Origin: a virus
Virus record (IMG/VR): IMGVR_UViG_3300045912_000118
Coordinates: 1 to 36,768 of that record
DNA: 36,768 nt
Direction: 5' to 3' (one strand)
The notes under the pieces were generated by a model. That model had not been told where the DNA came from, ran no database searches, and was given only the letters and a program-made list of their open reading frames with translations. Shown here piece after piece: positions 1 through 36,768 of this stretch (the stretch's first letter is position 1; every line of letters starts with the position of its first letter). The position numbers were made by a program, and so were the translations under genes.

Positions 1-59
1 GGCGGCACTTAGGTTCGCGAGGACCTGGGCCTGCGGCTCGAGCTCGAACGATCGCTTTT
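1..59. other. Variant tip at the contig start
   Basis: These 59 bases align without gaps to 36583-36641 but differ at positions 9, 10, 57, 58 and 59. Each is T here and C in the right-hand copy, and all lie in two CCC runs followed by AGG. The changes turn a Trp codon of the TPR-glycosyltransferase gene into a stop. The right-hand copy gives an open frame and is taken as the true sequence. This stretch is best read as a minor variant or damaged read path that the assembler attached to the end, and it is not extra genome. Confidence 0.75.
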
Positions 60-246
60 AGGCCAGGGCTGCGGTCGCCTTGCGGCCCACGGCGTTCAGG
101 GCGTAGCCGTAGAAGAACCAGAGGGCGGGGTTGTGGGGATACTGGTTGAGCGCCGGCTCGAGGAGTTGGATCGACTCGGCTGGCCGGCCTTCCTTGAGGA
201 AGGCCTGCGACCGGGCGATGACATCGCCCAGGGCGACCTGTTGCAT
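58..246 (-). CDS. TPR-glycosyltransferase, N-terminal part (gene crosses the contig join)
   Basis: First 62 codons of a 467-residue protein that continues at 36641 and ends at 35425. The two pieces (246 to 60, then 36641 to 35425) join in frame at 1,404 nt. ATG at 246 is preceded on the minus strand by GGAGG seven bases upstream. A TTG further upstream is possible but has no such site. The residues form a tetratricopeptide-type helix pair (aliphatic and Ala positions, then GYALNAVGR). The stop at 58-60 arises only from the C-to-T differences in the first 59 bases and is treated as an artefact. The gene lies directly behind a terminator, so it probably depends on read-through from the capsid operon. 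Confidence 0.8.
   Translation of the reverse strand: MQQVALGDVIARSQAFLKEGRPAESIQLLEPALNQYPHNPALWFFYGYALNAVGRKATAALA
60..186. repeat. Left copy of 127-bp exact terminal repeat
   Basis: Identical base for base to 36642-36768. The length of exactly 127 bases equals a common largest assembler k-mer, so the repeat most likely marks circular closure of the assembly graph. That implies a circularly permuted or terminally redundant genome and does not show a biological 127-bp terminal repeat. Confidence 0.9.
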
Positions 247-259
247 GTTGCCTCCGCGC

Positions 260-289
260 AAAAGACAGGGGCCCCTCGCGGGGCCCCTG
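260..289 (-). terminator. Intrinsic terminator after the capsid genes
   Basis: Perfect 10-bp stem (266-275 with 280-289, CAGGGGCCCC paired to GGGGCCCCTG) with a TCGC loop, followed on the minus strand by TCTTTT (265-260). It lies between the head-protein gene ending at 321 and the TPR-glycosyltransferase start at 246. A weaker 7-bp hairpin (297-303 with 311-317) lies just before it. The downstream gene's ribosome site begins only a few bases past the T tract, so this may act as a partial terminator that lowers glycan-gene expression relative to capsid protein. Confidence 0.8.
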
Positions 290-320: not shown

Positions 321-764
321 TTACTGGATGTCGTCGAGCACGTACTCGAGGAAAACATCGCCGACCGCGCCGACCGTGACGCCCGCCGAGGGGGTGAACG
401 TCACGTCGATGAAGCGGACCAGGCGCTCATCCGAGAGCGACAGGTTGCCATTCGCGTTGCCGAAGCAATTCCCGCGCGAGCCGGTCACGATCGCGGCCGA
501 GTAGGTGGCCGAGCCGAAGATCGCGTCCTCGGACAGCGAATTGCCGTTGAGGCCGACCTTGAACACGCCCACGCCCGAGGCCGCGGGGCCCGGAATCCAC
601 ACCGCCCGGACGAGCTTGGCGCGGTGCGGGAGCTTGCCGATGAAGTACACGTCCCCGGCCGAGAACGTCGCCGACAGCGACACGCGGCAGAGGAGCCCAT
701 TCACGCCCGACTCGACGGCCTTGGCCTGCGAGTTGAGGTATCCAGCGGTCCTATTCGTAGCCAT
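321..764 (-). CDS. Putative head decoration or capsid-associated protein
   Basis: A 147-residue protein encoded immediately after the major capsid gene (10-nt gap). The ATG at 764 has AAGGAG upstream. It is mostly short beta-prone stretches rich in Gly, Ser, Val and Phe, with no signal peptide or membrane segment. Two stretches resemble the small beta proteins often encoded behind N4-type capsid genes: one around residues 25-60 (VYFIGKLPHRAKLVRAVWIP) and a C-terminal FLEYVLDD. The role as decoration or head-completion protein is inferred from position and size. I recognise no named family and no catalytic motif. It is the last gene before the terminator at 260-289. Confidence 0.7.
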   Translation of the reverse strand: MATNRTAGYLNSQAKAVESGVNGLLCRVSLSATFSAGDVYFIGKLPHRAKLVRAVWIPGPAASGVGVFKVGLNGNSLSEDAIFGSATYSAAIVTGSRGNCFGNANGNLSLSDERLVRFIDVTFTPSAGVTVGAVGDVFLEYVLDDIQ

Positions 765-774
765 GTCAGTCTCC

Positions 775-1833
775 TTAGACCGCGTTGTCGTAGGACGGGA
801 CCACGATGACGCCGAAGTCCGAACCGTTGAAGCGGTTCTTCTTCAGTCCACCGATGCATCCCGAGCTCACGCCCAACTGGTTGCCGTAGTCGAATGCCTT
901 CTCGGTCCAGGTGAAGATACCCTTCCCGTAGCCCTTGCCGAAGGACATCGAGAGCGCCTGGGCGCCGCACAGGGCCGCGCGTCGCACGGATGCCGCCAGT
1001 CCCGGAGAGCTCGGGATGCGGGTCGATTCGTGCAGGATGACGTTGTTGTAGACGCCGAGCGCGCCGGTGAAGATCGGGCTGCTGTCGACCTTGCCGCCGC
1101 TCATCGCCGCCTTCTGGATGTCGAGCCACTGGCCGGTCGAGGTGTTCGTCCGCAGGCTCGTCACCTGGGCCGGGTGCAGGAACATGACCCAATGGCGCTT
1201 GTTGCCGATGCTGATGGGCCGGAGCGCGTTCTTGAGGGTCTTGGCCTTTTCCACCGCGGCGTCGATGAAGGCCAGGTTGAACCGGGCCACGCTGGTATTC
1301 GACAGCGAAACCTCGGCCGTCGAGCCGGTGGCCGCGCCGATGACCACGTGGTCCGTGTCGGGGGCGATCGCCCCCTGCATACCCGTGAAGCGGACATCCG
1401 TCGCGCCGGTGTTGCCGGTAATCTGGTTGAAGAACCAGGTGTCGATGCGATCGCTCCACCAGTCGACCAGGCCGTCCTTCGCTTCCGCGCGGACGGAGAA
1501 CGGGACGCGCTGCTCGCTCATCTTGCCGCGGCTGCGCACCGCATGGCGAAGCTGGTCGATGAACACGTCGTCGAAGTAGATTTCGAGGTTTTCCTCGTTG
1601 CCCTCGAGGGTGTCGTCACCCTGGACGCCGGCGCCGCCCAACTGCATCCGCAGGTTGTGGCGGATTCGGTCGCCCGCGTCCTTCGACAGGTCGCTCTTGA
1701 TTTGGCACAGGGCGTTGGTGTCGCCGCCCATGAACTGCATTGCGTAGGTCGCCTTGAGGGCTTCCTTCGCGACCACGCTCGACCAGTGCTTCTTGGCGAG
1801 CGGGTGATTGACGGGATAGTCGGTTCCGGCCAT
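775..1833 (-). CDS. Major capsid protein, N4-gp56 family
   Basis: A 352-residue protein that should form the icosahedral head shell. The start is the ATG at 1833 (MAGTDYPVNHPLAKKHW), with AGGAGA six bases upstream. An upstream in-frame extension of 21 residues to 1896 lacks a ribosome site. Features typical of the N4-gp56/DUF4043 capsid family are visible: an early stretch on a potassium-type glycine loop (IKSDLSKDAGDRIRHNLR), the LEGNEENLEIYFDDVFIDQLRHAV region, a central MFLHPAQVTSLR and a late FDYGNQLGVSSGCIGGLKK. Position after portal and scaffold agrees. The family assignment is by motif memory and not by a search. Confidence 0.9.
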   Translation of the reverse strand: MAGTDYPVNHPLAKKHWSSVVAKEALKATYAMQFMGGDTNALCQIKSDLSKDAGDRIRHNLRMQLGGAGVQGDDTLEGNEENLEIYFDDVFIDQLRHAVRSRGKMSEQRVPFSVRAEAKDGLVDWWSDRIDTWFFNQITGNTGATDVRFTGMQGAIAPDTDHVVIGAATGSTAEVSLSNTSVARFNLAFIDAAVEKAKTLKNALRPISIGNKRHWVMFLHPAQVTSLRTNTSTGQWLDIQKAAMSGGKVDSSPIFTGALGVYNNVILHESTRIPSSPGLAASVRRAALCGAQALSMSFGKGYGKGIFTWTEKAFDYGNQLGVSSGCIGGLKKNRFNGSDFGVIVVPSYDNAV

Positions 1834-1919
1834 GGTGGCTTCTCCTGACGGGTTGATGGAACGATGCCCCGCAGTACGCCGCGGCGCGCGATCCACCAGG
1901 TTGCGGCCCTGGAGAAGCC

Positions 1920-2905: not shown

Positions 2906-4813
2906 TCAATCTCCTGCTTGTGCGGCGCCGGCCTCGGCTGCCGTCTTGAGCGCCACGAACGGCGCGTTCTGAGTGATATGCTGCGCCTTCGCCTGGTTGA
3001 GCTCGGCGGTACTCCTGTCCTTCATGATCCCGGCTTCCTTGATCGCGGCCTCGAGTTCGGCCATGCGTTTCTGCATTTCCTGAACCTCGGGGTTTGGCTT
3101 GAGCTCCTCCTTCCAGGCATTCGAGAGCTCCGTCGGGATGGGCATGTAGTCGAGGATTTTCTTCGGGATCGGCGCCTGGGCGGCCTGGGCGATCGGGATG
3201 ACCTCGCGCAGCACGGCCCAGGTGCGTTCGCGCATGTTGGTCGAGGTCGGTGCCTCGTCGACGATTACGTCGAAGGTCCCGGCAAGTTTGTCGCGCAGGA
3301 GCGGTATGTACTTCGCGCCGTCGTCGCCGGTGATGCGGATGATGCGCTCGTCGCTCATGAACTCGCGGATGAGCTCGAGGAGGAGCTTGCCGGACGTGCG
3401 GTAGTAGCGGCGCATCGAGTCGAATGCCCAGGCAATAATCGCCATGGCGGACTGCTTGCGCTGCGCCTCAAGCACGCCGGCCTGCTGGCGGTCGGCGAGC
3501 CCCATGAGCTCCAGGTTGAGGCCAGACACGGCCGGGAGCGCCTCGAGCGAGAACGCCATGAGCCGGTCCATGCCCTGCGGGTACTGTCCGGCGGGCTTTT
3601 CCTTGACCTTGCCCTCGGACAGGGCGCCATCCTCGAGGAAGGTGATCTTCGACGGGTCGGCCCAGGATTCTTCCGCCTTGCGCGGGTCATCAAACGCACC
3701 GCGTTCGGCCAGGAGCCCGCCCTTCGGGTTGACCGAGAGTTGCCACAGGATCGAGGAGAAGAACTTGTTGCCCCACAGGTTCGGGTCCTTGATGTTGCGG
3801 CCGATGCCGCGCCAGGTGCCCGTGTTGCGGTCGCGCTTGCCGGTGATCGTCTGGATCATCATTCCGGCCTGCGCCGGACTGCGGTCGTGGGCGTGAACCT
3901 TGTCGCCGCAAATGATCGCGGTGTAGTAGACGCGGCGCTTGGTCTTGGTCGCCTGGTAGGGGATGCTGTTCGCCTTGAGGGCCGCCTCGAGCTTCGCCCA
4001 GGTTTCGGGCTCAAGCTCCTGGTCGAACGGCTCGGACTGTAGGGTCTGCGGGTTGGGGATCATCGCCTTGACTTGGACCCGGCTCTCGCGGCGGACGTAC
4101 TGGTAATGCGCGACCCGGACCTTGCGCTTGGCGCCCGGCTGGTTCGCGATCGAATCCTCCTCGTAGTCCTCGGGCTCGTGGACTATCTCGATGCCGTGGT
4201 CCTCGGAGTGCTCGGCGTCGGCATCGGCGATCGCCTGCGCCTCGGTCTCGTCGACCTCGTACAGTTCGGCGTACTCCTCCGGCGAATACGGCTTGAGCCG
4301 GATGAAGTACCTGGCATCCAGGAGGTTGCGCTTCCGGGCCTGGTGGTCCGGGTAGCATTCCATCGGGTCGACCCGGCACTGAGCGATATGCTCGCCGTCG
4401 GCGCCCTCGTCATCGAGGCGGTGTTCCATGAACCCCATGCCCGTGAGGATCATGTCATAGAACGCTTCCGACTCCTCGGCCTCGGCGTCCGACAGGTCGC
4501 GGGTCCATTCGGCCGCGCCGGTGGCGAGCTCGTTCACCGCGGCGTCGCCGACTTCCCGTGGGAAGTAGCGAATCTCCTGCCGGTTGTTGATTTGCAGGCC
4601 GGCCACGGCGTCGATGAACTTGTCGGCGACGTTGAACGTCACGGCCGGCCGGCGCTGATCTTCCATGAGGGCCAGGTCCTCGGGGTCCCACTGACGGCCG
4701 GCGACGAACTCGTACAGGTCGCGCGCCTCCTGTCGCCAGTCTTTCCAGTGGTGTTTCGCCGCCTTGAAGTCGCGGCGGAATTGCTTGAGGAGCTCGTCGT
4801 CGGTGAGTTTCAT
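2906..4813 (-). CDS. Portal protein, P22-type
   Basis: A 635-residue dodecameric portal through which DNA is packaged and ejected. Start chosen at ATG 4813 because it overlaps the terminase stop as ATGA. A GTG four codons upstream is less likely. The N-terminus (DLYEFVAGRQWDPEDL, RRPAVTFNVADKFIDAVAGL) and the middle (MILTGMGFMEHRL, CRVDPMECYPD) match the P22-like portal family pattern. A charged helical C-terminus (residues about 570-620) resembles a short barrel region. The length is between that of siphovirus portals and P22 gp1 (about 725 residues). It sits in the normal order terminase, portal, scaffold, capsid. Confidence 0.9.
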   Translation of the reverse strand: MKLTDDELLKQFRRDFKAAKHHWKDWRQEARDLYEFVAGRQWDPEDLALMEDQRRPAVTFNVADKFIDAVAGLQINNRQEIRYFPREVGDAAVNELATGAAEWTRDLSDAEAEESEAFYDMILTGMGFMEHRLDDEGADGEHIAQCRVDPMECYPDHQARKRNLLDARYFIRLKPYSPEEYAELYEVDETEAQAIADADAEHSEDHGIEIVHEPEDYEEDSIANQPGAKRKVRVAHYQYVRRESRVQVKAMIPNPQTLQSEPFDQELEPETWAKLEAALKANSIPYQATKTKRRVYYTAIICGDKVHAHDRSPAQAGMMIQTITGKRDRNTGTWRGIGRNIKDPNLWGNKFFSSILWQLSVNPKGGLLAERGAFDDPRKAEESWADPSKITFLEDGALSEGKVKEKPAGQYPQGMDRLMAFSLEALPAVSGLNLELMGLADRQQAGVLEAQRKQSAMAIIAWAFDSMRRYYRTSGKLLLELIREFMSDERIIRITGDDGAKYIPLLRDKLAGTFDVIVDEAPTSTNMRERTWAVLREVIPIAQAAQAPIPKKILDYMPIPTELSNAWKEELKPNPEVQEMQKRMAELEAAIKEAGIMKDRSTAELNQAKAQHITQNAPFVALKTAAEAGAAQAGD

Positions 4814-6375
4814 GCGGACATCCACGACCCGCGAGGGCGGTCCTCGGCGTAGGCGTCCCGCTTCTCGTCGGCGCCGCGCGGCCAGGACAGGTTCACGTCG
4901 AACACCCTGGCGATTGCGTCGAGGAGGTCGTCATGCAGCGGGACGGGCCAGGGCATGAGCTCCTCCTCGACCAGGACGCGCGCCAGGTCAACAGTCTGCC
5001 CGTCCGAAGTGGTCCGGTAAAGGGATTCTGGCATCCAGAACTTGCCCTGGGCGAAGTAGGGGATGAGCCGATTCACGCGATCCGCCTTCGACATCGACCC
5101 GCCGACCTCGGTCACGGCGAAGCGGTAGTTCTCCTGGTCCTGGATCATCTTCAGGGCGTCGGTGTCGGCGTCCTTGCCGTATTTCTCCCAGGCGGTGACC
5201 TTCGGCTTCCAGACCCGATGCAGGCGGATCGCCTCGAGGCATCGCTCCTGGAGGTTGAGCCGGTCGCGCACCGCATCGACCAGGTAGAGGTTGCCGTCCT
5301 GCCCCTTCCCGATGACGGCCATGGCGGTGTAATCAGAGCCCTTCTTCTTCTCGTTGGCGGGGTCCACGAGGAGGGCCAGGTTGGCGGAGCGGCGCCATTC
5401 ATCCGGGCGCTTGGTCTTGAAGGTGCGGAGCCATTCGCGCCTGAAGGTCTGAAGCGAGTCGGCGATTGGGTTCTGCATGAGTTGGGCGGATGCGGTGTAG
5501 GGACCCATTTCGCGCACCTTCTGCTCGAGCTCGGCCCGCGTCAAGAGGACCGGCTCGCCGGTGAGGGTGCCGTCCGCGGTGGCCGGGTGCAGCCTGGGGG
5601 TGGCTGCGCCGCGCTTCATGATGTCCTGGTAGGTGTCGGCGAAGTGATACCGGGTCCCGATGATGCGCTTCCTTGGGGCGCGGTTGCCCAGGTTGAGCGA
5701 GAGCTCCCAGGCCTGCGTTGTCTTGCGGATCATGTCCGGGTTGGTGACTGACTCGCGGGTCACGGTGTCGTCCCACACCAGGACGGAGAAATGCTTGGAG
5801 GTCGGCTGGCCGTCGACCAGTCCCCAGGCCTCGACCGTGGCCTCTTTTGGATTCGAGCGCCGGCGGACCACGAGCCCGTCATTCTCCGACCATTTTGGCG
5901 CCTGGGCGTTGGGCTTGTCGTAGAGCACGTCCGGGAATAGTTCCTTGAGGACGCGGTTGCCCTCTAGCTCGAACTTGATTTGACGGAGGAACGCCTTCGC
6001 GATCGGCCGGGTGTGGCTGAAGATCGCGATTGTGGCCTCGAGGCCGCCCCATTCCGGGAGCGGGTCCTCGCCGTGGCTGGCGAGGATGTCTTGAATCGTG
6101 CGAGCGAACGTGATGATGGTGGACTTGTAGTGACCTCGAGCCCATAGGTCCAGGTGGCCGTCAGGGCTCTCCTGAACCTCCCTGATCCGCTGGAACAGCC
6201 AGGGGTGTTCCACGTCCGTCCTCATCAGGAGGTAGCGCAGGAGGAAATACAGGTCCGTCCTCGCCAGTCCCCGCGCCATGATTCGCTTTTCGGGCGGCGT
6301 TAAACCGGACAAGTAGCGCATCAAACTCGGGTAGTCCGACAACTTGAGTTCCCGGGACGGGGGTGATTCCGGCAT
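4810..6375 (-). CDS. terL: Terminase large subunit
   Basis: A 521-residue packaging ATPase and nuclease. The P-loop is the variant ARGHYKST (Gly81 to Thr86), and the Walker B is VLVWDD (Asp202, Asp203). A RuvC-like nuclease domain follows, with Asp338 in LALLVDPAN, Asp367 in LYLVDAV and the late LHDDLLDAIAR acidic patch. ATG at 6375 has AGAGG upstream. A shorter start at codon 19 (MRYLSGLTPPEK) is possible. The conserved-looking LARTDLYFLLRYLLMR segment lies inside the 215-nt overlap with the small-subunit frame. The 3' end overlaps the portal start as ATGA. Headful or site-specific packaging cannot be told from the sequence alone. Confidence 0.93.
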   Translation of the reverse strand: MPESPPSRELKLSDYPSLMRYLSGLTPPEKRIMARGLARTDLYFLLRYLLMRTDVEHPWLFQRIREVQESPDGHLDLWARGHYKSTIITFARTIQDILASHGEDPLPEWGGLEATIAIFSHTRPIAKAFLRQIKFELEGNRVLKELFPDVLYDKPNAQAPKWSENDGLVVRRRSNPKEATVEAWGLVDGQPTSKHFSVLVWDDTVTRESVTNPDMIRKTTQAWELSLNLGNRAPRKRIIGTRYHFADTYQDIMKRGAATPRLHPATADGTLTGEPVLLTRAELEQKVREMGPYTASAQLMQNPIADSLQTFRREWLRTFKTKRPDEWRRSANLALLVDPANEKKKGSDYTAMAVIGKGQDGNLYLVDAVRDRLNLQERCLEAIRLHRVWKPKVTAWEKYGKDADTDALKMIQDQENYRFAVTEVGGSMSKADRVNRLIPYFAQGKFWMPESLYRTTSDGQTVDLARVLVEEELMPWPVPLHDDLLDAIARVFDVNLSWPRGADEKRDAYAEDRPRGSWMSA

Positions 6376-24685: not shown

Positions 24686-24692
24686 GCGCGCC

Positions 24693-25490: not shown

Positions 25491-25500
25491 CGGGGTTCTC

Positions 25501-26475: not shown

Positions 26476-26479
26476 GGCC

Positions 26480-26911: not shown

Positions 26912-27365
26912 GGCCGGGGTTCCTCACGGGTCTCTGCGCCTCGACGACAGGACGAAACCGCCAGTCGTCACTCAAGAGCTTCTGCCACCCCGGCCGCCCT
27001 TGCATCATGATGGTATCGCATCCATGCGCCGAACTCCAAGCGTCCAGGAAGGCCTCGATTTCTACCTGGTGCGCCTTCCAGATTCCCGGCTCACCGCCGA
27101 ACGCCCATACATTCGTCACGAGCTTGGGTCCGGCGTACTGCCGAACCTCGAGCACGAGGGTTCCTAGTGGCTTCGGCCGCTCCGTCCAGCGGACGGTCTG
27201 GTCGTCTCCGTAGAGGAGGGCGAGTTGCGCATGACCGGCGGCGAGCGCCTCGTACACCATGATCCCGGTCATCCAGTCGGGAGCGTGCTCGAGCGCGCGA
27301 TCAATGTGCCCATTCACCATCGGCCAGGCCTCGAGGACGCGGAAGGATGGGACCAGGACGATCAT
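26889..27365 (-). CDS. GNAT-like virion protein
   Basis: A 158-residue protein starting at ATG 27365, overlapping the previous stop as ATGA. A GTG two codons upstream is unlikely. The pattern (YEALAAGHAQLALLYG, TLVLEVRQYAG, then GCDTIMMQGRPGWQKLL) resembles the acetyltransferase-fold proteins found among podovirus internal virion proteins, such as the T7 gp13 group. The conserved GR-GW-K element is present. Acetyltransferase activity is doubtful, because the acetyl-CoA loop is not obvious. Confidence 0.65.
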   Translation of the reverse strand: MIVLVPSFRVLEAWPMVNGHIDRALEHAPDWMTGIMVYEALAAGHAQLALLYGDDQTVRWTERPKPLGTLVLEVRQYAGPKLVTNVWAFGGEPGIWKAHQVEIEAFLDAWSSAHGCDTIMMQGRPGWQKLLSDDWRFRPVVEAQRPVRNPGHGIHAFP

Positions 27366-28405
27366 GTCCACCTCGGCGTGGTGAAGGTCTGGCGAACCCG
27401 GAAAAGGTCGACCAGCATTTGATGATTGACGGCGCCGGCCTGTACGGCGATTTGGATTCCAGGATTGAGGAGCGCGGTCGGCAAGGTGGCCGTGAGGGTG
27501 GCGGCGTAAACGCGCGCGCCGCCCTCCGGCTGAACCGACATGACTGTCGTCAGGTTGCTCGGGTCAATCTCGAGGCGGACGTGATACCAGACATTCGCCG
27601 CCGCCGCGAAGCCGGTATTCGCCAGGACCGCCGCGCTACTGATGAGGACCCCGGGGAGAATGTGAAAGGCGTCGACGCCATTGAGGGAGCTAACACCAAA
27701 CACACTGACCGCATTTGTCGGCGGCCCGTTCAGTTCATCGAAAAGACCCATGCGCGACGTGAACCATGCCGCCAGGGTGCCGACACTCAAGAACCGGACC
27801 AGCGCCTCGTATGTGATGATTCCGCCGCCCAGGCGCAGACCGCCGCTTGAGGTGGATGTGATGTCGATTTGCCTCAACATCCCGGCATAGCCACTACTCG
27901 CCGTCCCCGTTGACAGCTGCACAACGCCCGGATGGCCGTCGAGCACTGAACTGGAACTTGGCGCAGCTACGCTGGAGCCAGTGCCGGATGTCAGAATGTC
28001 GATGCCGCCCTGGCCTGACGTGCCTGGCAGGTAAAGGAGGTCCTCGAGGATGTCGAGTTCATTCGCCGGGTTGAATGGCGCGCCGCCTCCTGACGGTAGT
28101 GCTGGAACTGGAACCTTGACGTGTGCCGAGGCGCTCGGGTCGAAGGCCAGCAGCACGAGGTCCGAGGTCGACGTGCTTTTTTCGGTCAGGCTGCCGACAT
28201 CCAGGAGTATCTGATACGAGCCGGAAACCGACAGCCCAGGGCCATGCGTGACTGGAGCGCCACCACCGCCGCCGCCGCCAGCGTCTATTGCCTCCGCGTA
28301 CTCCTGGAATGCAAAGGCGATCCTGCGCAATTCACGCAGGACGTACTCCGGCAGGTTGCGCTCATTGAGCGGCGCGGGAGCCGGCTCGTAGCGGCGGAGC
28401 GTCAT
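27362..28405 (-). CDS. Tail protein with lectin-like domain
   Basis: A 347-residue protein. After a short N-terminus comes a Gly run, then Ser/Thr-rich beta sequence. From about residue 190 a concanavalin/LamG-like sandwich is suggested (LRLGGGIITYEALVRFLSVG, VWYHVRLEIDPSNLTTVMSV). ATG 28405 overlaps the preceding stop as ATGA. It probably forms part of the tail or fibre complex that touches the cell surface. The domain call is by pattern and the receptor is unknown. Confidence 0.65.
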   Translation of the reverse strand: MTLRRYEPAPAPLNERNLPEYVLRELRRIAFAFQEYAEAIDAGGGGGGGAPVTHGPGLSVSGSYQILLDVGSLTEKSTSTSDLVLLAFDPSASAHVKVPVPALPSGGGAPFNPANELDILEDLLYLPGTSGQGGIDILTSGTGSSVAAPSSSSVLDGHPGVVQLSTGTASSGYAGMLRQIDITSTSSGGLRLGGGIITYEALVRFLSVGTLAAWFTSRMGLFDELNGPPTNAVSVFGVSSLNGVDAFHILPGVLISSAAVLANTGFAAAANVWYHVRLEIDPSNLTTVMSVQPEGGARVYAATLTATLPTALLNPGIQIAVQAGAVNHQMLVDLFRVRQTFTTPRWT

Positions 28406-29952
28406 CTTGGCCCCAGGTGGTCGAACTCGACATCGAACCCCATGAGTCGCAACGGGCCGCTCTCGTTGTGCTCAATCAACAGGTGGATGAACCGGCCGGT
28501 CACGCGGCAGTCGATCTTGCGATCCACCCCGCACACAAACAGGAACGGCCCCTGCATGAGGACAGTGCCCTCCTGATTGTCCGAGGCGCCGACCCTGATC
28601 CGCAGTCGCGTGCCGGGCGCGCCGATCACCTTGGGATATACCCGATGCACGCGCTTGACCTGCGCCACGTCCTTCGACAGCGCCATGTTTTGCCGCAACG
28701 CGAAGGCGCCGATGGTCGCCCCGTCGAATGTCGGCCCGGTGTTGCCCTGTAGTAGCTGCTGGCGGGTGGCCGCAGCCAGCAGGAGCCGTTGCGACCAGGG
28801 GGTGTATTCGTACTCGTCGAACTCGCCGACCGGCCCGGTATCGAACTCGCCAGGGTCGTTATCGAAGGTCACGCCGGCAGCCTCGACGATGCCGCTCGAG
28901 GCGTGCGCCATTTGTTCGCCAAGGTCGCGCACGCTCCAGGAGTTGTCCAGCCAGTTCCAGACAGCGGCCAGGTTCGGGAAGTCCACGCCGACCTCCGGGA
29001 AACAGAACCACATTTCCCGCTCGCGGTAATCGGCGGCCACGAACGAGAACTCGAACCGATCCGGCGAGAGCCGATTGAACAGCCAGCGGCGCATCCGCTT
29101 GTCCACGAGGCTCTGCGCATCGTTGCCGTCGTGGGCAATGATGTCGCTATCCGTCACAGCGAAATGCCTGGGGCCGAAGGCCTTGACGCAACCCTCGGTC
29201 AGGAGCCCCGACTCCTTGAACACCTCCCGGAACGCGAACACGTCGAGCCCGCCGACGTACTGCATGATCCAGGTATGGAAACGCTTGTAGACGATGTTCT
29301 GGTCACGTAGCGGCAGGCAGTCGACGAGCTCGTCGTGGGTCTGCCCGAGCTCGGTGCGGCCGGCCTGGTTGGTCGGATCGGTGAAGTCCCACGAACCCGG
29401 CATCGCGCCGACTGCGGCCCGGTCGCTCCATCGCACCAGGCGCGGGTTGTAGGAGCCGCCTTCGTTCCACCGCAGGCCGACCAGGAAGTCACCGAACGGC
29501 CGAATCACGTCGACGATGTGCGCGGTCGGCCAGTGGCTGATCTCGGCGAAGTCGTTGCCGAGTCCCGGTAACCACACCTGCGGCGGGTTGATTGCATCGT
29601 TCGCGATCATGCGCCCGTGGAAGGCGCCGCCCGTGTAGCCGAGGCGCGCGTCCGCTGAGAACGTCAGGGTCGGCGCGGTCGGGCTCACGAGGGCGTGCAG
29701 CGATCCGTCCGTGGCATAGAGGTACTGCTCGTTGCCGTAGACCCAAAACGTCGTGATCCCGTCCGAAACCGGCTCGACCCATATCGGCGTCGCGGAGGCG
29801 GAACCAAAGACCGACCGCTGCCCCCTGATCTTCTCCACCGCGCCCTCGCGGAAGCGGAAGTTCCTGGCCTCGGTCCAGACTCCATCCTCTGGAATCGGGT
29901 CCGGCAGGTCCGGCATCATGCCGCCGGCCATGTTGTCGATTGGCTTGCGCAT
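28402..29952 (-). CDS. Tail protein, P22 gp10-like (tail hub/stabilisation)
   Basis: A 516-residue protein. ATG 29952 overlaps the fibre gene stop as TGATG with GAGG upstream, so the in-frame TTG upstream is not used. The sequence is beta-rich with aromatic turns (ARNFRFREGAVEKIRGQRS, WVYGNEQYLYATDG, YKRFHTWIMQYVGG, FEFSFVAADYREREMWFCF). This is the pattern of the large DNA-stabilisation or tail-hub proteins of P22-like podoviruses. Such proteins plug the portal and carry fibres. Assigned by pattern and place behind the adaptor and fibres. Confidence 0.7.
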   Translation of the reverse strand: MRKPIDNMAGGMMPDLPDPIPEDGVWTEARNFRFREGAVEKIRGQRSVFGSASATPIWVEPVSDGITTFWVYGNEQYLYATDGSLHALVSPTAPTLTFSADARLGYTGGAFHGRMIANDAINPPQVWLPGLGNDFAEISHWPTAHIVDVIRPFGDFLVGLRWNEGGSYNPRLVRWSDRAAVGAMPGSWDFTDPTNQAGRTELGQTHDELVDCLPLRDQNIVYKRFHTWIMQYVGGLDVFAFREVFKESGLLTEGCVKAFGPRHFAVTDSDIIAHDGNDAQSLVDKRMRRWLFNRLSPDRFEFSFVAADYREREMWFCFPEVGVDFPNLAAVWNWLDNSWSVRDLGEQMAHASSGIVEAAGVTFDNDPGEFDTGPVGEFDEYEYTPWSQRLLLAAATRQQLLQGNTGPTFDGATIGAFALRQNMALSKDVAQVKRVHRVYPKVIGAPGTRLRIRVGASDNQEGTVLMQGPFLFVCGVDRKIDCRVTGRFIHLLIEHNESGPLRLMGFDVEFDHLGPR

Positions 29953-32081
29953 CAGGGGACCTCGTTCGTCCAATCCCAGGCAACGAAGCCGGCAGGCTTG
30001 TACTCAAATGGCCCGGTCGTGTTGATGTAGACGCCAAGATACCGGCTCGCGTCGGTGAAGTTCCCGCCAAATCGCCACGGGCCGAGGCGTGGCCTCGAGA
30101 ATGCTTGGTTCTTTGGCAGCGAGTCATAAAAGTTCAGGGTGCAGAACGCCGACCCGTCGAGGTACATGGTGGCCTCGTTGGCGCTGAAGTCCAGGGCAAA
30201 CCCATAGACGCGGGTGTCTGAAAACGAAAGTTCGCTGGCGAACGTGCCGGTGTAGGTCGAGCTTGGGACCTCGTTGATGACGGCAATCCACCGCAGGCCG
30301 AAGCGCCTGGTGTTGTTTCCGACCGCGCCGACTCCCGGATATCTGCCGAATCCTGACGGCGCCATGAGGCCGAACCACACGTCGCCGTTGTTGGCGCCGC
30401 TGGTGCCCAAGAGTTGCGCCTTGACCTCAAGGTAGTATTTGCCGACCGTCCTGACGGAAGCGCCGGCCGAAGCAAAGTAGTCGCCCCACACCTGGCGATC
30501 AACCTCGGCCATCCCGTAGTCTCCGATGCTCCCCCAGGACCCGCCCACGAATTGCAGACTCGCCGAATCGGATTGCCCGTAGGACCAGAACCCATGCCCG
30601 GCCCGCGGCCACCACAACCTGGATCGCTGATGCTGAACACCGCGCGGCGTGATCGAGAACGCGATGGGCGTGATACTGGTGTATGGCGACCCCTCGATGG
30701 ACGATCGCCACGGAACCGACGAGCCGTGCGCGAGGCGCCTGGACGGGCCCGTTCGTTCCCACGGGAACAGCGTCGGAGTGCATTGAGACCCGTACACCGA
30801 GCACAGCCCGACCATGATGTGAGCGATGTTTTGGTCAATCTGAGTGTTCGTGATTTCCTCTAGAAACCTAGGCGGCGATGACGCATATCTCGCAACCCCG
30901 TACCTGAGTTCGTAGATGCCGGAATCGGTTGCCGTGAACTCACCGCCGAAGATTTTCCTCGCGTTGTACGTGCCGCTTTCTGAGCCGGGCTCGCCGATCG
31001 CGAAGGGCAAGGTGAAAGCCGCCCCCGAGTTCGGCGGGAAGCCGATTCCTGACTGCATGAAGAAATGCCCGACTCTCGAGCTATCCGGGCGGATGACCTG
31101 CAAATACAGGGGGGAGGTGCTGTTTGAGATGCGTCCAGCGGTGAAAAAGACGTACTGCCCGGGGTCAAGGTGAACGGACCTGGAGATGGCCCTCACCATG
31201 GACGTAGACAGCGACGTGTCGGCTTTGAAAAACGGGTAGGTCAACAAGGCCGAGCGCGCGGTCCATGAAAGCGATGCGTTGATCTGTCCCCAGGCTTTGC
31301 CGCCGGTGGGCCCCTTGTTGTAGTAGGGCCTCGTGCCAGTGAGCTCGCCGGGTTCGGAGAACGTGACTTGATCGAAGGCGACGTATTGACAGGAGAACAA
31401 TTCTGCGCCGCTGATCGACGTGTACCGTTCAGCCCAAAACGGCGTGCTGATGAGCGGCTCCGGTCCACGCACGATGCCATATAGTTCGGATGCGCTCAGG
31501 CTTGTCACGCACCCGAAATTGGTGACTTGCAGCGCACCTTGGGCGTGGTGTCGGGTACCGCTCAGGAGTCGCCCGCGATGCCCGAGTACCTTCGGAAAGT
31601 TAACAAGTATCGACATGCTGTCGGTACCGGACATCTCTCGCCCGAAAGACTCTTGGACCGGCATCCCGAGATACACGTAATCGACCGGGACCCTACGATC
31701 GACGTTTTTCAGGAGCCAGAACCGCCCGCAGATTCTCCCGGCAGGGCTGAGGTTCGCGAACGTGAAGGTCTCGTTCGCGGTGTCGTAGAACCCATAAGCC
31801 CAGGTGCAGCACGATCCTGGGGTCGCCGCTGAGGCCGATTCGCTGTTCGGCAGGACCGACTCGTGGATGATGCGCCAGGATGCCGGAATGCTCGCCATTC
31901 CCTCCTGACTCGGGATAAGCTGCGCCAGAATCACGTCGCCGACCTCGGCCACGCTGCCCCATTCCGTTGCCGGACTGACGGTAATCGAAACGCCGCAAAT
32001 GACGCCGCGCGGGTCCGGCGTCACGCCAACCCTGTCGGCGGGCGGGCCTTCGTGCAGATACCAGTCCTGCTGCTGCTGCAT
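29952..32081 (-). CDS. Tail fibre/receptor-binding protein with SPRY-like end
   Basis: A 709-residue protein. Start ATG 32081 (MQQQQDWYLHEGPPADRVG) lies one base after the previous stop. An in-frame TTG 13 codons upstream is less likely. The body is beta-rich with many Ser, Thr and Gly and no helical stretches. From about residue 540 the sequence resembles a B30.2/SPRY-type fold (GKYYLEVKAQLLG, VWFGLMAPSG, VYGFALDFSANEATMYLDGS). The sequence near 31000-31500 has a lower G+C look than the neighbours, as is common for rapidly changing fibres. Probable host-recognition protein. Confidence 0.65.
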   Translation of the reverse strand: MQQQQDWYLHEGPPADRVGVTPDPRGVICGVSITVSPATEWGSVAEVGDVILAQLIPSQEGMASIPASWRIIHESVLPNSESASAATPGSCCTWAYGFYDTANETFTFANLSPAGRICGRFWLLKNVDRRVPVDYVYLGMPVQESFGREMSGTDSMSILVNFPKVLGHRGRLLSGTRHHAQGALQVTNFGCVTSLSASELYGIVRGPEPLISTPFWAERYTSISGAELFSCQYVAFDQVTFSEPGELTGTRPYYNKGPTGGKAWGQINASLSWTARSALLTYPFFKADTSLSTSMVRAISRSVHLDPGQYVFFTAGRISNSTSPLYLQVIRPDSSRVGHFFMQSGIGFPPNSGAAFTLPFAIGEPGSESGTYNARKIFGGEFTATDSGIYELRYGVARYASSPPRFLEEITNTQIDQNIAHIMVGLCSVYGSQCTPTLFPWERTGPSRRLAHGSSVPWRSSIEGSPYTSITPIAFSITPRGVQHQRSRLWWPRAGHGFWSYGQSDSASLQFVGGSWGSIGDYGMAEVDRQVWGDYFASAGASVRTVGKYYLEVKAQLLGTSGANNGDVWFGLMAPSGFGRYPGVGAVGNNTRRFGLRWIAVINEVPSSTYTGTFASELSFSDTRVYGFALDFSANEATMYLDGSAFCTLNFYDSLPKNQAFSRPRLGPWRFGGNFTDASRYLGVYINTTGPFEYKPAGFVAWDWTNEVP

Positions 32082-32082
32082 C

Positions 32083-32727
32083 TCAGCCGTACTTGCGGGG
32101 CGCCGCGAGCCATACGCCAAGCGGCGAGTCCCAAACCATGGTCACGAAGTCGATGGCGCTCGCCGTGCTCGAGGCAGAGAACACGGAGCCATCCGCCCAA
32201 ACGACTGCGGCCGGCCACCCCGCTACGTTGGCACCGCCGGCGCCGTCTTGCTGAAAGCGGATCGAGAACACCTCGCCGTGGCTGGTGGCCTGGCCGAGAC
32301 TGACCGAGGTCACATTCCCCGCCAGGACGACCGAGAAGTAGGCGTAACTGGCCGGCTCCAGGTTGAGGGTGCCGGACAGGGTTCCGAGGTTGAGCCCATA
32401 CCTCGAGCGCATGAACTGGTCCGCGCTCAAGCTGTTCAACATCCTAGCGTTGCCGGCGCTCATGGCGTAGTGGACTGTCCCGGAAACCGAGGCCGAGTCG
32501 AAGATTCCCTTCATCGCGTTGAGTTGCGCCTGGATGTTCCAGGACGCGCTTCTGAGGAAGTTCGCCTCGCCGTGACTGATTGAGACCTCCCCGGCCAGGT
32601 TCGGGAAGGTGCGCGACAGCGCGCCCTTCACGAGCCGATGATGGTCGTCTGACGTGCTGCGCTGATCGGACCCAAGCGGCCAGGTCGTGACCAGCGAATT
32701 GATGTAGGTAGCCGTTTCGAGTGCCAT
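32083..32727 (-). CDS. Tail fibre-type protein
   Basis: A 214-residue protein. The N-terminal region (TYINSLVTTWPLGSDQRSTS, DDHHRLVKGALSRTFPNL) is typical of virion-attached fibre ends in podoviruses. The C-terminus (EVFSIRFQQDGAGGANVAGW, then VWDSPLGVWLAAPR) resembles trimeric fibre tip domains. ATG 32727. It lies between the adaptor and the large fibre gene. Confidence 0.7.
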   Translation of the reverse strand: MALETATYINSLVTTWPLGSDQRSTSDDHHRLVKGALSRTFPNLAGEVSISHGEANFLRSASWNIQAQLNAMKGIFDSASVSGTVHYAMSAGNARMLNSLSADQFMRSRYGLNLGTLSGTLNLEPASYAYFSVVLAGNVTSVSLGQATSHGEVFSIRFQQDGAGGANVAGWPAAVVWADGSVFSASSTASAIDFVTMVWDSPLGVWLAAPRKYG

Positions 32728-32736
32728 GCCTGGGCC

Positions 32737-33381
32737 TCACATACAGGGTTGGATGGTGCCGGAGTGCTGTTGCAGGCGGACCTGGCCGCGCAGCCGGCGA
32801 AGTGCGCTGTCATACATCCGGCTGTATTTTTCCGCCTCGGCCAGGCCTTCCGGCCCGCCGACGTGGGTCGCGTTGACCTCGGCCAGCGAGCCGTACAGCG
32901 TGACCAGGTAGGCGTCGTCGAACCATGGCAGGACTGTCCCGTCCGACCAGGACGAGCTCAGGGAAAAAGCCACGTCGACCAGGCATTGGAGTTGCGCCGA
33001 ATAGGTCTCGTCCGGGACCGGATAGAACCTCAGTTGCTTGTCCTGGCCGTTGCGCTCGAAGGCGAAGTAGATCGGTTCGGACTGGTAGGTCTGGCTCTTG
33101 CGCTCGGCGAGGAGCCAGTTGGGCGTGCGCTCGAACAGGACCTCGAAGGCATTGCCGGAGTCAATGCGGATCGAGTCAATTTCGAGGACCTCGCCCGGCA
33201 GGGTGACGAGCTCGGCGCCGATCATCAGGGCACGCCGCTCCTCGTTGAACCCGAGGCGCTCGGCCCTCAAGAGGTGGATGGTGTTCTGGATCGAGGCGCG
33301 AATGGCCGCGTCGTAGGCTGTCCCGCGGTCCAGGATGCGACGAGCCTCGGCGACGACCTGCGACAGGGTACGGGTCGGCAT
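32737..33381 (-). CDS. Head-tail adaptor protein
   Basis: A 214-residue protein (MPTRTLSQVVAEARRIL). Helical N-terminus, then LVTLPGEVLEIDSIRI, LRFYPVPDETYSAQLQCLVD and a C-terminal helix (AEAEKYSRMYDSALRRLR). This is the layout of the DUF6682-type phage adaptor proteins that join the portal to the tail. ATG 33381 follows a GAGGAC site. First gene of the tail block after the glycan cassette. Confidence 0.75.
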   Translation of the reverse strand: MPTRTLSQVVAEARRILDRGTAYDAAIRASIQNTIHLLRAERLGFNEERRALMIGAELVTLPGEVLEIDSIRIDSGNAFEVLFERTPNWLLAERKSQTYQSEPIYFAFERNGQDKQLRFYPVPDETYSAQLQCLVDVAFSLSSSWSDGTVLPWFDDAYLVTLYGSLAEVNATHVGGPEGLAEAEKYSRMYDSALRRLRGQVRLQQHSGTIQPCM

Positions 33382-33402
33382 GTCATGGTCCTCACCCCCG
33401 GC

Positions 33403-34173
33403 TCAACGCTGCCTTCGATACCTCGCCGTGACCTCGATGGCGTCCTCCGCGACGCCAGACCGTAACCTGTAGCCGATGTCGGCGACCGGGTTCCCGCTGC
33501 CTCCGAGGAGGCTGTCGAGCTCCTGCACCCATTCATCGACGGCCGCCTGGGCCAGGTAGCCGTGCCATGGACCGCCGTCAGTATAGTGAACAAGGGACGG
33601 GGAAGGCGAGACCGCCCGGCGGTCGTGGGTGACGAGCTCATTCCAGGACCCGACGATCGTCCCGATGTTGGCCTCGGTCGTCCAGGAGAATCCGTGCAGG
33701 TCGAGCCCGGCGGCGTGGTTGACGTGCTTGACGGTCAGGGTCCGGGTGTCTGGATGGCTGCAATTCAGGAGCATGAGGCTCGACCAGTTCTTTCTCGGGT
33801 AGCGGGTCTGGATCGCCCCGAGGAACTTGGTCGAGTTGGTCGGGACGTGCTCATGCTTGCGGACCATGACGGCGAACCGTTCGTCGCGCTGATTCCAGAG
33901 TTCCTCGATGTCGTCGAGGCACAGCATGTCGCAGTCCATGAAGATCGCCCACCCCTTGAAGTCGCACAGGGCCGGGACCAGGAAGCGGGCGTTCGAGAAC
34001 TCCGTCGAGTCGTATGGCCCTTTCTCCCGCCACCAGAGAGCGTGCGGGAGGACCGCGTTGCCGACCGGACTGATGGCGACGGGGATCGAGGCGCGGTCGA
34101 TGATCGAGTGCGCGAGAACGTGGTAGGCGATGGTCTCGCGCGAGTCCCACCCGATGAAAATGCGGGCAGTCAT
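33403..34173 (-). CDS. GT8-like glycosyltransferase
   Basis: A 256-residue GT-A-fold enzyme. MTARIFIGWDSRETIAYHVL starts like family 8 transferases, the metal-binding DxD is MDCDM (Asp80, Asp82), and a later HYTDGGPWHG gives the usual His. It should transfer a sugar from a nucleotide-sugar donor. Substrate unknown. ATG 34173 overlaps the preceding stop. Third glycosyltransferase of a four-gene cassette between capsid and tail modules. Confidence 0.8.
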   Translation of the reverse strand: MTARIFIGWDSRETIAYHVLAHSIIDRASIPVAISPVGNAVLPHALWWREKGPYDSTEFSNARFLVPALCDFKGWAIFMDCDMLCLDDIEELWNQRDERFAVMVRKHEHVPTNSTKFLGAIQTRYPRKNWSSLMLLNCSHPDTRTLTVKHVNHAAGLDLHGFSWTTEANIGTIVGSWNELVTHDRRAVSPSPSLVHYTDGGPWHGYLAQAAVDEWVQELDSLLGGSGNPVADIGYRLRSGVAEDAIEVTARYRRQR

Positions 34174-34880
34174 CGGTAGGCCTCCATGAGGTCCTTCCTG
34201 CCGCCCTTGAAGTGCAGGATGACCTTGCCGGTCACGTCCTCGCCGGCCGCCTCCGGGGTGTAGTTGTGGGTGTCGCAGGGCAGCTTCAGGACGTTCAGGC
34301 GGGTATCGCCGGGGTCGGTCAGGGCCCAGGCGATCGGGACCGGCCCGTTGCCCTGGGGGGCGCCCACGAGCTCGGCGAGCGCCATCTGGTTGCCATACCA
34401 GGCCTGATGCTGCGGGTTCATCCGCAGGATGCGGGCGCGCAGCCAGAGAAGCGCCTCGAAGGTGGCCGGGCGCGCGCGGGCGTAAATGACCCCGTAGTTG
34501 TAGGGCATGAACTTGGCGAGGCCTGCGATTTTCTCGTCGCCCCTGACGGCGACGTGATCGCGCCAGGTCACGCCCAGGTCGTAGATCGACGGCAGGACGT
34601 AGCCCTCGCGGATGAGGGTATCGGCGTCGACGAACAGGAACGGCTCGCCAAGGACGGCGCCGGCAAGCGCCCGAATCTGCGCGTCGAGATTCGCGACCAT
34701 TGCCGGCCGGCCGCCGCTGATGATGGCGCGCTGTGCCGGCAGCTTGTAGTCCTGGGCGGGGTCGCCCGACTCGGTGTAGACCAGGACGGTGCAGCCGGGG
34801 TAAGCCTTGCGGGCGGATTCAATCGAGACCTCGGCCATCTTCGCGTGCTCGAGGCCGCGAATCCAGTAGACGATATTCAT
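34170..34880 (-). CDS. GT-A glycosyltransferase-like protein
   Basis: A 236-residue protein starting at ATG 34880, overlapping the methyltransferase stop as ATGA. A nucleotide-sugar-binding start (MNIVYWIRGLEHAKMAEVSI) leads to a DxD motif in FLFVDADTLI (Asp85, Asp87), and the C-terminus ends KVILHFKGGRKDLM, similar to GT8/LgtC-type ends with a late His. Acceptor and sugar unknown. It acts with its neighbours on a phage or host glycan. Confidence 0.7.
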   Translation of the reverse strand: MNIVYWIRGLEHAKMAEVSIESARKAYPGCTVLVYTESGDPAQDYKLPAQRAIISGGRPAMVANLDAQIRALAGAVLGEPFLFVDADTLIREGYVLPSIYDLGVTWRDHVAVRGDEKIAGLAKFMPYNYGVIYARARPATFEALLWLRARILRMNPQHQAWYGNQMALAELVGAPQGNGPVPIAWALTDPGDTRLNVLKLPCDTHNYTPEAAGEDVTGKVILHFKGGRKDLMEAYR

Positions 34881-35437
34881 GCCAGGTCCTCCGCCCTCAT
34901 GACGCTCCACACCGAATCCGGCATGACGCCGACCCGCATGAGCGGGAAGCGGGCGGCCACGGCGCGCATGACGCCGGGGAACTTGTGCTGATAGTCGTGG
35001 CCGCAGAGGAACCCGCCGTCGCGCACGAGCGGCCACCAGGCGTCGATGTCCTCGAGCACGCTCTGATGGTCGTGACCGGCGTCCAGGAACACCAGGTCGA
35101 ACTTCTGGTCGGCGAGCTTTGCCGCCGCCTCGAGCGAGGTCGACCGCAGCATTTCGAGGCGTCCCATATGGCCCTCGACGTTCTGCCAGAACTCCCGCTC
35201 GATCTTGCCGAAGTCCCAATCCTCATAGGTTTCGGCGCCCTCCCCGGAGCGATCCGGGAACGGCCGCCACGGGTCGATCGCGACGACCTTGAGCGCCGGG
35301 AATTGCTTGAGTAGTGCCCCGGTGAGGCGCCCCTCTTTGCAGCCGACTTCGACGAAGGTCCCGAAGTTGTTGGCTTCGATGAGCGAGGCGAGCACGTCCC
35401 ACCGCCTGAGCGGGGAGTTGAACTTCATGGCAGGCAT
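34877..35437 (-). CDS. Class I SAM-dependent methyltransferase
   Basis: A 186-residue protein. ATG 35437 has GGAGG at seven bases and is chosen over ATG 35428, which overlaps the upstream stop but lacks good spacing. Motif I is FVEVGCKEGRLTG (residues about 28-40), then AIDPW and VFLDAGHDHQSVLEDI, as in the Methyltransf_24 group. It probably methylates a sugar, as small methyltransferases of this group often accompany glycan clusters. The gene is embedded between glycosyltransferases. Confidence 0.75.
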   Translation of the reverse strand: MPAMKFNSPLRRWDVLASLIEANNFGTFVEVGCKEGRLTGALLKQFPALKVVAIDPWRPFPDRSGEGAETYEDWDFGKIEREFWQNVEGHMGRLEMLRSTSLEAAAKLADQKFDLVFLDAGHDHQSVLEDIDAWWPLVRDGGFLCGHDYQHKFPGVMRAVAARFPLMRVGVMPDSVWSVMRAEDLA

Positions 35438-36768
35438 TCGAGTACCTCCGCGACGGCCGGCGTCCAATCGTCTCCCTGCTGGCGGTGCAGGGTGGCGTGA
35501 CCGCCAGGGTAGAGATACCAGGGCTCTCCGGAACCGGGGCGGACGCCGTACCGCCAGGCCGGTCTCGAGGGTGTCAGGACGCGGGTCGGGTGGCCCATGG
35601 CGGCCGACAGGTGTGCGACCGACTGGCAGACCGTGATGATGGCGTCGGTCGCCGCCACCAGGGCCGCCTTGTGGTGGTAGTCCCAGGCCCAGGTGATCGA
35701 CGGCACCCACAGGTACTTGTTGGCCCCGTAGGTCTGGCTGATCCACATGGCGATGTCGCTCACGTCGTCGTAGTCGAGCGACACGAACACCAGGTCGTCG
35801 CGCCTGATGATCGGGTCCAGGATCGCCGGGTCGACGGTGCGGTAGGTGCGGGCGGTCTCGAGTGACCCGCCGCGCAGGGACAGGCCGATGACCTTGCGGC
35901 CCTCGGCGAGCTCCGCCAGGTAGCGGCGGTTGATTTGGGCTTCATCGGGGTTCGCCCGGTAGTAGGGCCCGCGCCAGGCGAATGATTCGGCGCTCGTCCG
36001 GTAGAACTGAGCGAGGTCGCCGATCGGGGCGTAGTAGTCGGCCATGCCCTGCTCATACCAGGCCGGCGTCGTCTTGCGGGTCGGGAACCGGGTGACGAAT
36101 GGCGCCCAGGGCGCGGTATCGTGCAGGCCACCGAGGCGCGGATGATGGTCGAAGGTGACCTCGAAATGCCGGCGGATGTCGTCGAGCATGGTCGCGAACA
36201 TGAGCTCGTCGCCGATGCCCTGCTCGCCGTAGACGATGAGCCTCGAGCCCTTGGCGGCCTCGAAGTTGTCCGGCTTGAGCGGCGTGGCGCCGGCGTAGGT
36301 GCGCCGGTCCCTGGCCTCGTGGTGACCCCTGGCGTAGAGCTTGAACCCTTCCGCGAACCGGCCGGCCTCGAGGTGGACGAGCGCCAGGTTGAAGTCGAGT
36401 TGGGGGCTGCCGGCGCCGCCGCGGCCGAGGAACTTTTCGGCGACCTCGATCGCCTCGAGCGGCCGGCCCTCGTTGACGTAGGTGCCGACCAGGTTCGCCA
36501 CGGTCGGGAGGTCGTCCGGAATCAGCGCGAGCGCCTTGCGGAGCACGATCCTGGCGCCTTCCGGGTCGGCCGCGCCGCGCATGGCGGCACCCAGGTTCGC
36601 GAGGACCTGGGCCTGCGGCTCGAGCTCGAACGATCGCTCCCAGGCCAGGGCTGCGGTCGCCTTGCGGCCCACGGCGTTCAGGGCGTAGCCGTAGAAGAAC
36701 CAGAGGGCGGGGTTGTGGGGATACTGGTTGAGCGCCGGCTCGAGGAGTTGGATCGACTCGGCTGGCCG
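35425..36768 (-). CDS. TPR-glycosyltransferase, main part (gene continues at the contig start)
   Basis: C-terminal 400 or so residues of the 467-residue protein whose start is at 246. TPR-type helices (residues about 1-130: LANLGAAMRG, NEGRPLEAIEVAEKFLG, FNLALVHLEAGRFAEGFKLY) are followed by a GT-B/GT9-like region: LIVYGEQGIGDELMF, VIGLSLRGGSLETART, and DAIITVCQSVAHLSAAMG near the end. The joined gene is open throughout (no stop across the join) and overlaps the methyltransferase start. TPR-linked glycosyltransferases often modify proteins or surface glycans. The acceptor is unknown. Confidence 0.8.
   Translation of the reverse strand, partial: RPAESIQLLEPALNQYPHNPALWFFYGYALNAVGRKATAALAWERSFELEPQAQVLANLGAAMRGAADPEGARIVLRKALALIPDDLPTVANLVGTYVNEGRPLEAIEVAEKFLGRGGAGSPQLDFNLALVHLEAGRFAEGFKLYARGHHEARDRRTYAGATPLKPDNFEAAKGSRLIVYGEQGIGDELMFATMLDDIRRHFEVTFDHHPRLGGLHDTAPWAPFVTRFPTRKTTPAWYEQGMADYYAPIGDLAQFYRTSAESFAWRGPYYRANPDEAQINRRYLAELAEGRKVIGLSLRGGSLETARTYRTVDPAILDPIIRRDDLVFVSLDYDDVSDIAMWISQTYGANKYLWVPSITWAWDYHHKAALVAATDAIITVCQSVAHLSAAMGHPTRVLTPSRPAWRYGVRPGSGEPWYLYPGGHATLHRQQGDDWTPAVAEVLECLP
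36642..36768. repeat. Right copy of the 127-bp exact terminal repeat
   Basis: Identical to 60-186. The 59 bases before it (36583-36641) match 1-59 apart from five C/T differences, and this copy carries the version that keeps the TPR-glycosyltransferase gene open. Confidence 0.9.

Follow-up and report, generated by a model that had tools for sequence, protein, structure and literature searches.

We analyzed the IMG/VR virus record IMGVR_UViG_3300045912_000118 over its full length of 36,768 bases (hereafter the window), in which four genes on the minus strand form a cassette for three glycosyltransferases and a methyltransferase: a TPR glycosyltransferase (tprGT), a Methyltransf_24-type methyltransferase (MT), a GT-A glycosyltransferase (GTa) and a GT8-like glycosyltransferase. 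We estimate a probability of roughly 0.6 that this cassette is a cytoplasmic glycosylation module for a protein of the virion, and about half of that estimate falls to a capsid cement (decoration) protein, whose gene precedes tprGT, as the acceptor. A preliminary description of this DNA had proposed that virion proteins are glycosylated with methyl-capped sugars by enzymes of a late operon. The evidence favors a reading in which a virion protein receives a methylated sugar, because the cassette holds a conserved site behind the cement gene, nearly always includes a methyltransferase, exchanges glycan-type enzymes, encodes no membrane segments and has an analogue in an unrelated phage, although a conserved hairpin qualifies the late operon. 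The gene identities, at the strengths given below, and the synteny, modularity, hairpin and pairing of bacterial homologs are established by sequence, from which the function of the cassette is predicted.

The position and composition of the cassette were determined in loci gathered from IMG/VR by three scans (41 loci by the GT8-like protein, the best 80 of 597 by the major capsid protein, MCP, and two by tprGT), and the counts given here cover the 70 loci in which both the MCP and the adaptor could be scored; L003 and L047 are one contig, and several other loci are near copies. Single-sequence scans of IMG/VR found two loci with tprGT and no relative with GTa. The cassette was located between the MCP and adaptor genes in 36 of the 70 loci. 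All five genes (cement, tprGT, MT, GTa and GT8) are present in 13 loci, cement, tprGT and GT8 in 19, and cement and tprGT in two; in two more, tprGT and GT8 were scored with a cement gene that our rule did not count (an h147-type gene overlapping the MCP frame in L111 and a d132-type gene in L099). Five loci have the cement gene alone and 29 have none of the five genes, most of the latter carrying the other, d132-type cement. Thus, tprGT is found in 36 of 36 cassette loci and the GT8-like gene in 34 (L090 and L118 are without it).

A methyltransferase is encoded in at least 33 of the 36 cassette loci (L008 and L009 were unscanned), and none was found in L103. Thirteen of these enzymes are of the Methyltransf_24 type, 18 belong to a second cluster, and those of L007 and L070 were identified by Pfam. 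The second type is Methyltransf_23-like, its 18 loci forming one BLAST cluster (Pfam was run on five of the 18), and it usually fills the middle of loci without MT and GTa. GTa is present in 13 cassette loci, every time with a Methyltransf_24 gene. Other enzymes found in cassettes are a radical SAM/SPASM enzyme in L063 (and in L006, outside the 70), a GDP-mannose dehydratase-like enzyme in L070, and a sulfotransferase in L124 with a BLAST homolog in L125, both of which also have MT and GTa. Exchangeable middle genes would also be consistent with neutral or other cargo, that is, bacterial enzymes retained for an unrelated metabolic use; however, hardly any cassette locus is missing a core gene, and these genes have kept catalytic-type motifs and co-diversify with the capsid genes, and we consider cargo very improbable. 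In L045 (9194-11186), tprGT is represented by two open reading frames with a gap and is possibly broken or interrupted. L124 (7024-7910) has two tandem cement-type genes before the cassette, as does L125. In L088 (8860-10143) and L089 (8482-9807) there is cement without a cassette, and in L088 a large glycine-rich protein (Gly_rich_2) is encoded at the site.

On the MCP tree of 70 rows the presence of the cassette requires four changes, versus a mean of 23 when the labels are shuffled, and we therefore conclude that it is inherited with the lineage. Consistent with this, tree distances correlate with those of the MCP for tprGT (0.86) and GT8 (0.73), and with those of cement at 0.80 and 0.67, respectively (30 loci, without L047, L008, L009 and L045). 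Homologs of the two genes that bookend the cassette also occur together in bacteria: among the best 80 of 535 bacterial GT8-like loci, 33 have a TPR-GT no more than 700 bp away from the GT8 homolog, on the same strand in 23, and therefore these genes are partners outside phages too. In bacterial loci L147, L165, L166, L167, L169, L194 and L200, the GT8-like gene lies amid an array of several consecutive TPR-GT genes. In Rhizobium, six contigs (L139, L144, L145, L160, L198 and L204), each about 20-22 kb long, have a GT8-like gene without a TPR-GT; it is located some 2-3.3 kb in from an end of the retrieved sequence, and the contigs are perhaps one mobile element. A comparable arrangement was found in an unrelated, siphovirus-like phage (L026), where a portal and a head protease of another type are followed by sialyltransferase-like, GT8-like and methyltransferase genes and then by tail genes. 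A match to RHph_X2_30 was set aside, being to a very long protein with no comparable cassette around it.

All four genes of the cassette as first described are present in the window, and the ATGA overlaps said to join them were confirmed at three junctions: between MT and GTa (34880-34877), between GTa and GT8 (34173-34170), and between tprGT and MT, where the ATG at 35428 overlaps the stop at 35427-35425 (an alternative in-frame start for MT lies at 35437). The first gene had been called TPR-GT9-like. Its N-terminal TPR repeats are clear (Pfam TPR_14, 6e-9), but the likeness of the C-terminal domain to GT9 is weak, in that Pfam Glyco_transf_9 matched only four of 32 family members (best E value 0.0023) and did not match the domain of the window's own tprGT. 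The best PDB profile match of the catalytic domain is heptosyltransferase II (1psw, E value 0.019). The window domain matches the bacterial TPR-GT of L166 at 37% over 276 aa (4e-41), the tprGT catalytic profile spans bacterial TPR-GTs almost end to end, and one such homolog (L194, 6138-7973) scores above the Pfam GT9 cut-off. We assign the domain provisionally to the GT-B type based on the weak GT9 matches together with this homology.

The second gene product is a member of Pfam PF13578 Methyltransf_24, as had been noted (3.4e-18; 66.9 bits vs. a cut-off of 26.3), a family that includes small-molecule O-methyltransferases. It also matches phrog_2675, labelled DNA methyltransferase, and phage glycosyltransferases are able to modify DNA (reference cited in PMC12619734), so that the cassette could be imagined to act in DNA hypermodification, with the transferases glycosylating modified bases and MT working on DNA. 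This we regard as extremely improbable: the Methyltransf_24 match argues against it, a scan of the window proteins, in which the small open reading frames were covered in part, found neither a thymidylate synthase nor a hydroxymethylase, nor any base-modifying enzyme, and the cassette is amid virion genes, away from the region of about 9.6-15.3 kb that holds the replication genes.

The remaining two genes had been described as encoding GT-A enzymes; the predicted fold of GTa bears this out, and the last gene product is GT8-like. GTa has no Pfam family at E ≤ 1, its best PDB profile match is LgtC (E value 0.4), and we refer to it as GT8-like only, since it has no family-level sequence match. 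Structure prediction had been suggested for all three transferases; for GTa, the AlphaFold model (predicted local distance difference test score, pLDDT, 91) has a GT-A fold of the GT8/GT6 kind, and the two aspartates of its DxD metal motif (D85 and D87) are invariant in 12 sequences. The model matches glycogenin (Z 16-17) and, tied with it, the capsid glycan transferase of virus PBCV-1 (2p73; Z 16.3, root-mean-square deviation 3.0 over 185 residues), followed by BoGT6a (about 15). PBCV-1 is a eukaryotic algal virus and its enzyme has 16% identity to GTa; because glycogenin matches equally well, the fold alone does not reveal the function of GTa. The last gene product matches phrog_28018 (5e-41) and, below the cut-off of 24.3 bits, Pfam PF01501 (18.8 bits, E value 0.0013); its best PDB profile match is WbbM (E value 0.0023), and D80 and D82 of its DxD motif are invariant in 34 sequences.

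The protein encoded between the MCP and tprGT matches solved cement proteins by profile (PDB 8h89_J, 6.3e-11; 7eel_H, 1e-10), and its structure model, of moderate quality (pLDDT 65), has the GP4 cement protein (8h89_J) as its top Foldseek match (2.2e-4). The GP4 cement trimers are reported to be located on the outer capsid surface (PMC9698820). No relative of the window's cement protein was found in INPHARED. Cement of the h147 type is present in 35 of 36 cassette rows, with the window included and L047 dropped as a copy of L003. The cement protein is our first candidate for the acceptor because of its position, its co-inheritance with the cassette and its exposure in the homologous capsid.

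The preliminary description placed the cassette in the late operon, between capsid and tail genes. That view stands in part: the cassette continues into the adaptor gene mostly without a hairpin, but a strong terminator-like hairpin divides the cement gene from tprGT (Table 1). The hairpin was not listed by a generic terminator scan and was found by reading the sequence, after which folding of positions 240-330 gave a minimum free energy z-score of -3.25. A promoter scan found none, few being expected by chance. With a rule set after the window hairpin had been seen, for which shuffles and other junctions served as controls, a like hairpin is present between cement and tprGT in 25 of 34 distinct regions, compared with 3 of 170 single-base shuffles, and is rare elsewhere (MCP-cement, 1/47; after tprGT, 1/34; after GT8, 1/30; GT8-adaptor, 1/20). 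The stem sequences vary between loci. In cassette-negative loci the hairpin was found past cement in 4 of 16 and 2 of 5 cases; therefore in some loci the capsid unit stops at this point although no cassette follows. We expect that the hairpin is probably a terminator or attenuator that holds expression of the enzymes under that of the shell proteins.

A mechanism that would accommodate these observations begins with a soluble tprGT that binds a virion protein by its TPR repeats and uses a host nucleotide-sugar to place the first sugar on it. The glycan would then be lengthened by two GT-A enzymes of the glycogenin/LgtC type, GTa and the GT8-like protein, and capped or decorated by MT. As acceptor we consider a protein on the virion surface most likely, and the benefit may be altered recognition or stability of the particle. 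The module probably derives from a bacterial TPR-GT and GT8 pair and was then inherited with the capsid genes. In its fullest form, which we put forward tentatively, a podovirus lineage glycosylates its cement protein with a modular methyl-capped glycan, using a captured bacterial TPR-GT/GT8 core, interchangeable enzymes (a second glycosyltransferase, sulfotransferase, radical SAM enzyme or sugar epimerase) that vary the outer sugar, and a conserved terminator that fixes how much shell protein is made relative to enzyme. If these cassettes do glycosylate virions, podoviruses of an environmental lineage would inherit the sugars of their particles as a trait that varies among them, the variable middle enzymes would offer predicted glycans in a natural series, a glycosylation route guided by TPR repeats, in the style of flagellin, would have been transferred to a capsid, and the question of the acceptor would be reduced to one small cement protein.

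Several observations weigh against glycosylation of the virion, or against cement as its target. The cassette is absent from 34 of the 70 loci, most of which still have a cement protein, which therefore does not need the cassette, and the h147-type cement itself occurs in 9 of 34 cassette-negative rows. The Ser/Thr share of cement is alike in both types (0.208 vs. 0.203), with no enrichment. Cement type was considered as a determinant of the cassette and dropped, as the tree offers two to four independent contrasts, a number too small to reach significance. Partial Mantel tests over the same 30 loci as above were significant for many gene pairs, including those with the adaptor, and did not single out cement over the MCP or adaptor; since adaptor distances correlate too, the correlations indicate vertical co-inheritance and no particular acceptor. 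In addition, the conserved hairpin parts the cassette from capsid transcription.

Lastly, GT8 and GT9 enzymes also build the cores of bacterial lipopolysaccharide, and therefore a role in surface polysaccharide fits the same families. Modification of the host surface, in which lipopolysaccharide or another envelope glycan would be altered late to limit superinfection or the loss of progeny to debris, is a serious rival because the best PDB matches (heptosyltransferase II, LgtC and WbbM) are polysaccharide enzymes. We nevertheless judge it unlikely. None of the four products has a membrane-like stretch (Kyte-Doolittle mean >1.5 over 19 residues), unlike a serotype-converting gtr operon, which includes a flippase in the membrane and a lipid-linked glucosyltransferase. 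A scan of the window proteins, with the small open reading frames covered in part, likewise found neither a flippase nor a lipid-linked transferase. Moreover, the site behind the capsid genes is kept in 36 of 36 cassette loci, and the TPR fusion would fit a protein acceptor.

The precedent for binding guided by TPR repeats is FlmG of Caulobacter crescentus, which has an N-terminal TPR domain, which binds flagellins, and a C-terminal GT-B-type domain, and is described as a cytoplasmic transferase with a repetitive, self-assembling acceptor (PMC7591256); a similar layout and role are proposed here for tprGT. FlmG differs in that its acceptor is flagellin, its donor is pseudaminic acid and its TPR region is 313 aa, versus about 170 aa in tprGT. 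The ability of such relatives to modify flagellin raises the alternative that the cassette glycosylates a protein outside the particle, such as a flagellin, pilin or other host appendage or envelope protein. Flagellin-like genes, identified by motif, flank only 2 of the best 80 bacterial loci, most bacterial pairs having no flagellin nearby, and three of ten genomes searched (those with L165, L194 and L166, all with the TPR-GT/GT8 pair) gave no Flagellin_N match. Flagellin was therefore rejected as a general bacterial partner, and its scarcity near these genes also weighs against virion glycosylation. Because the cassette genes of the phages follow the lineage of the capsid, we consider a non-particle acceptor improbable.

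For tailed phages, glycosylation of the virion has been documented chiefly in mycobacteriophages, according to citations in PMC12363180 and PMC12619734; head or tail proteins of Che8, Corndog and Myrna are the proposed targets of glycosyltransferases that these phages encode (Freeman et al., 2023, as cited there). In those phages, which are of another type and have other genes, the same sources report that capsid and tail-tube proteins carried detected glycans, while the present cassette (TPR-GT, GT8-like and methyltransferase genes behind a cement gene) is described from its genes. Of the features associated with phage virion glycosylation, we found encoded glycosyltransferase genes and their linkage to virion genes (36 of 70 loci). 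Among annotated phages, Podoviridae sp. ctDrO704 (MW202512, Manatee Spring) has, in the order seen in the window, MCP, cement-like, TPR, FkbM-type methyltransferase, GT8-like ("galT-like") and adaptor genes; it differs in that no GTa was found, an extra 159-aa gene is annotated as an endonuclease, and the cassette is annotated without function. Caulobacter phage CcrColossus has a GT8-like homolog beside other transferases, including a GT9-labelled gene, a few genes after a tail gene, and in Pelagibacter phage Mosig such a cluster is near nucleotide-metabolism and not virion genes; both are different phages with different gene sets. No account of this cassette was found in the open-access literature searched, which leaves most subscription journals outside.

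The phage of this record is of the short-tailed (podovirus) type, and a megablast of positions 20001-36768 against INPHARED found no near-identical phage. A direct repeat of 186 bp at both ends of the contig (181 of 186 positions identical) closes the map and completes tprGT, which is 467 aa long across the junction (246-187 and 36768-35425). The five mismatches of the overlap fall in two places close to where the left end begins on its outer side, where TT and TTT replace the CC and CCC of the right end; every change is C to T on the plus strand and would create a stop in tprGT, and the mismatches are probably an end-of-contig artefact. The minus-strand order is terminase, portal, scaffold candidate (probable, by its position between portal and MCP only), MCP, the 147-aa cement protein, tprGT, MT, GTa, GT8-like, SU10-type adaptor and tail-type genes. 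The placement of the cassette between head and tail modules hence holds on the circular map, but not on the linear contig, whose end truncates the first gene of the cassette.

Table 1. Positions of the cassette and associated features in the window.
Feature	Position	Strand	Basis or remark
Terminal direct repeat	1..186		Copy of 36583-36768; overlap closing the map; falls inside tprGT
tprGT, first 20 residues	187..246	-	ATG at 246; gained by closing the terminal overlap
Terminator-like hairpin between cement and tprGT	266..289	-	Stem of 10 bp closed by a 4-nt loop; TCTTTT tail
Capsid cement (decoration) protein, 147 aa, candidate acceptor	321..764	-	Profile and Foldseek
Major capsid protein (MCP)	775..1896	-	Phage_capsid_3; phrog_334
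P22-like portal	2906..4825	-	Scan of window proteins
Terminase large subunit	4810..6375	-	Scan of window proteins
SU10-type adaptor, first connector gene past the cassette	32737..33381	-	Scan of window proteins
GT8-like glycosyltransferase	33403..34173	-	phrog_28018; DCD motif
GTa, GT8/GT6-like GT-A glycosyltransferase	34170..34880	-	DAD motif, C-terminal HxKG
MT, Methyltransf_24-type methyltransferase	34877..35437	-	Start 35437 or 35428
tprGT, residues 21-467	35425..36768	-	TPR repeats, then GT9-like domain

Elsewhere in the window, about one-fifth of the genome is taken up by the gene for a 2376-aa protein (17555-24685, minus strand), which has one recognised domain (ddrB-ParB, 3.9e-24) and is likely an internal or ejected virion protein. 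A Peptidase M15 family protein, likely the endolysin, is encoded at 16785-17504 on the minus strand, and an ERF-type annealing protein adjoins a YqaJ exonuclease at 11998-13328 on the plus strand.

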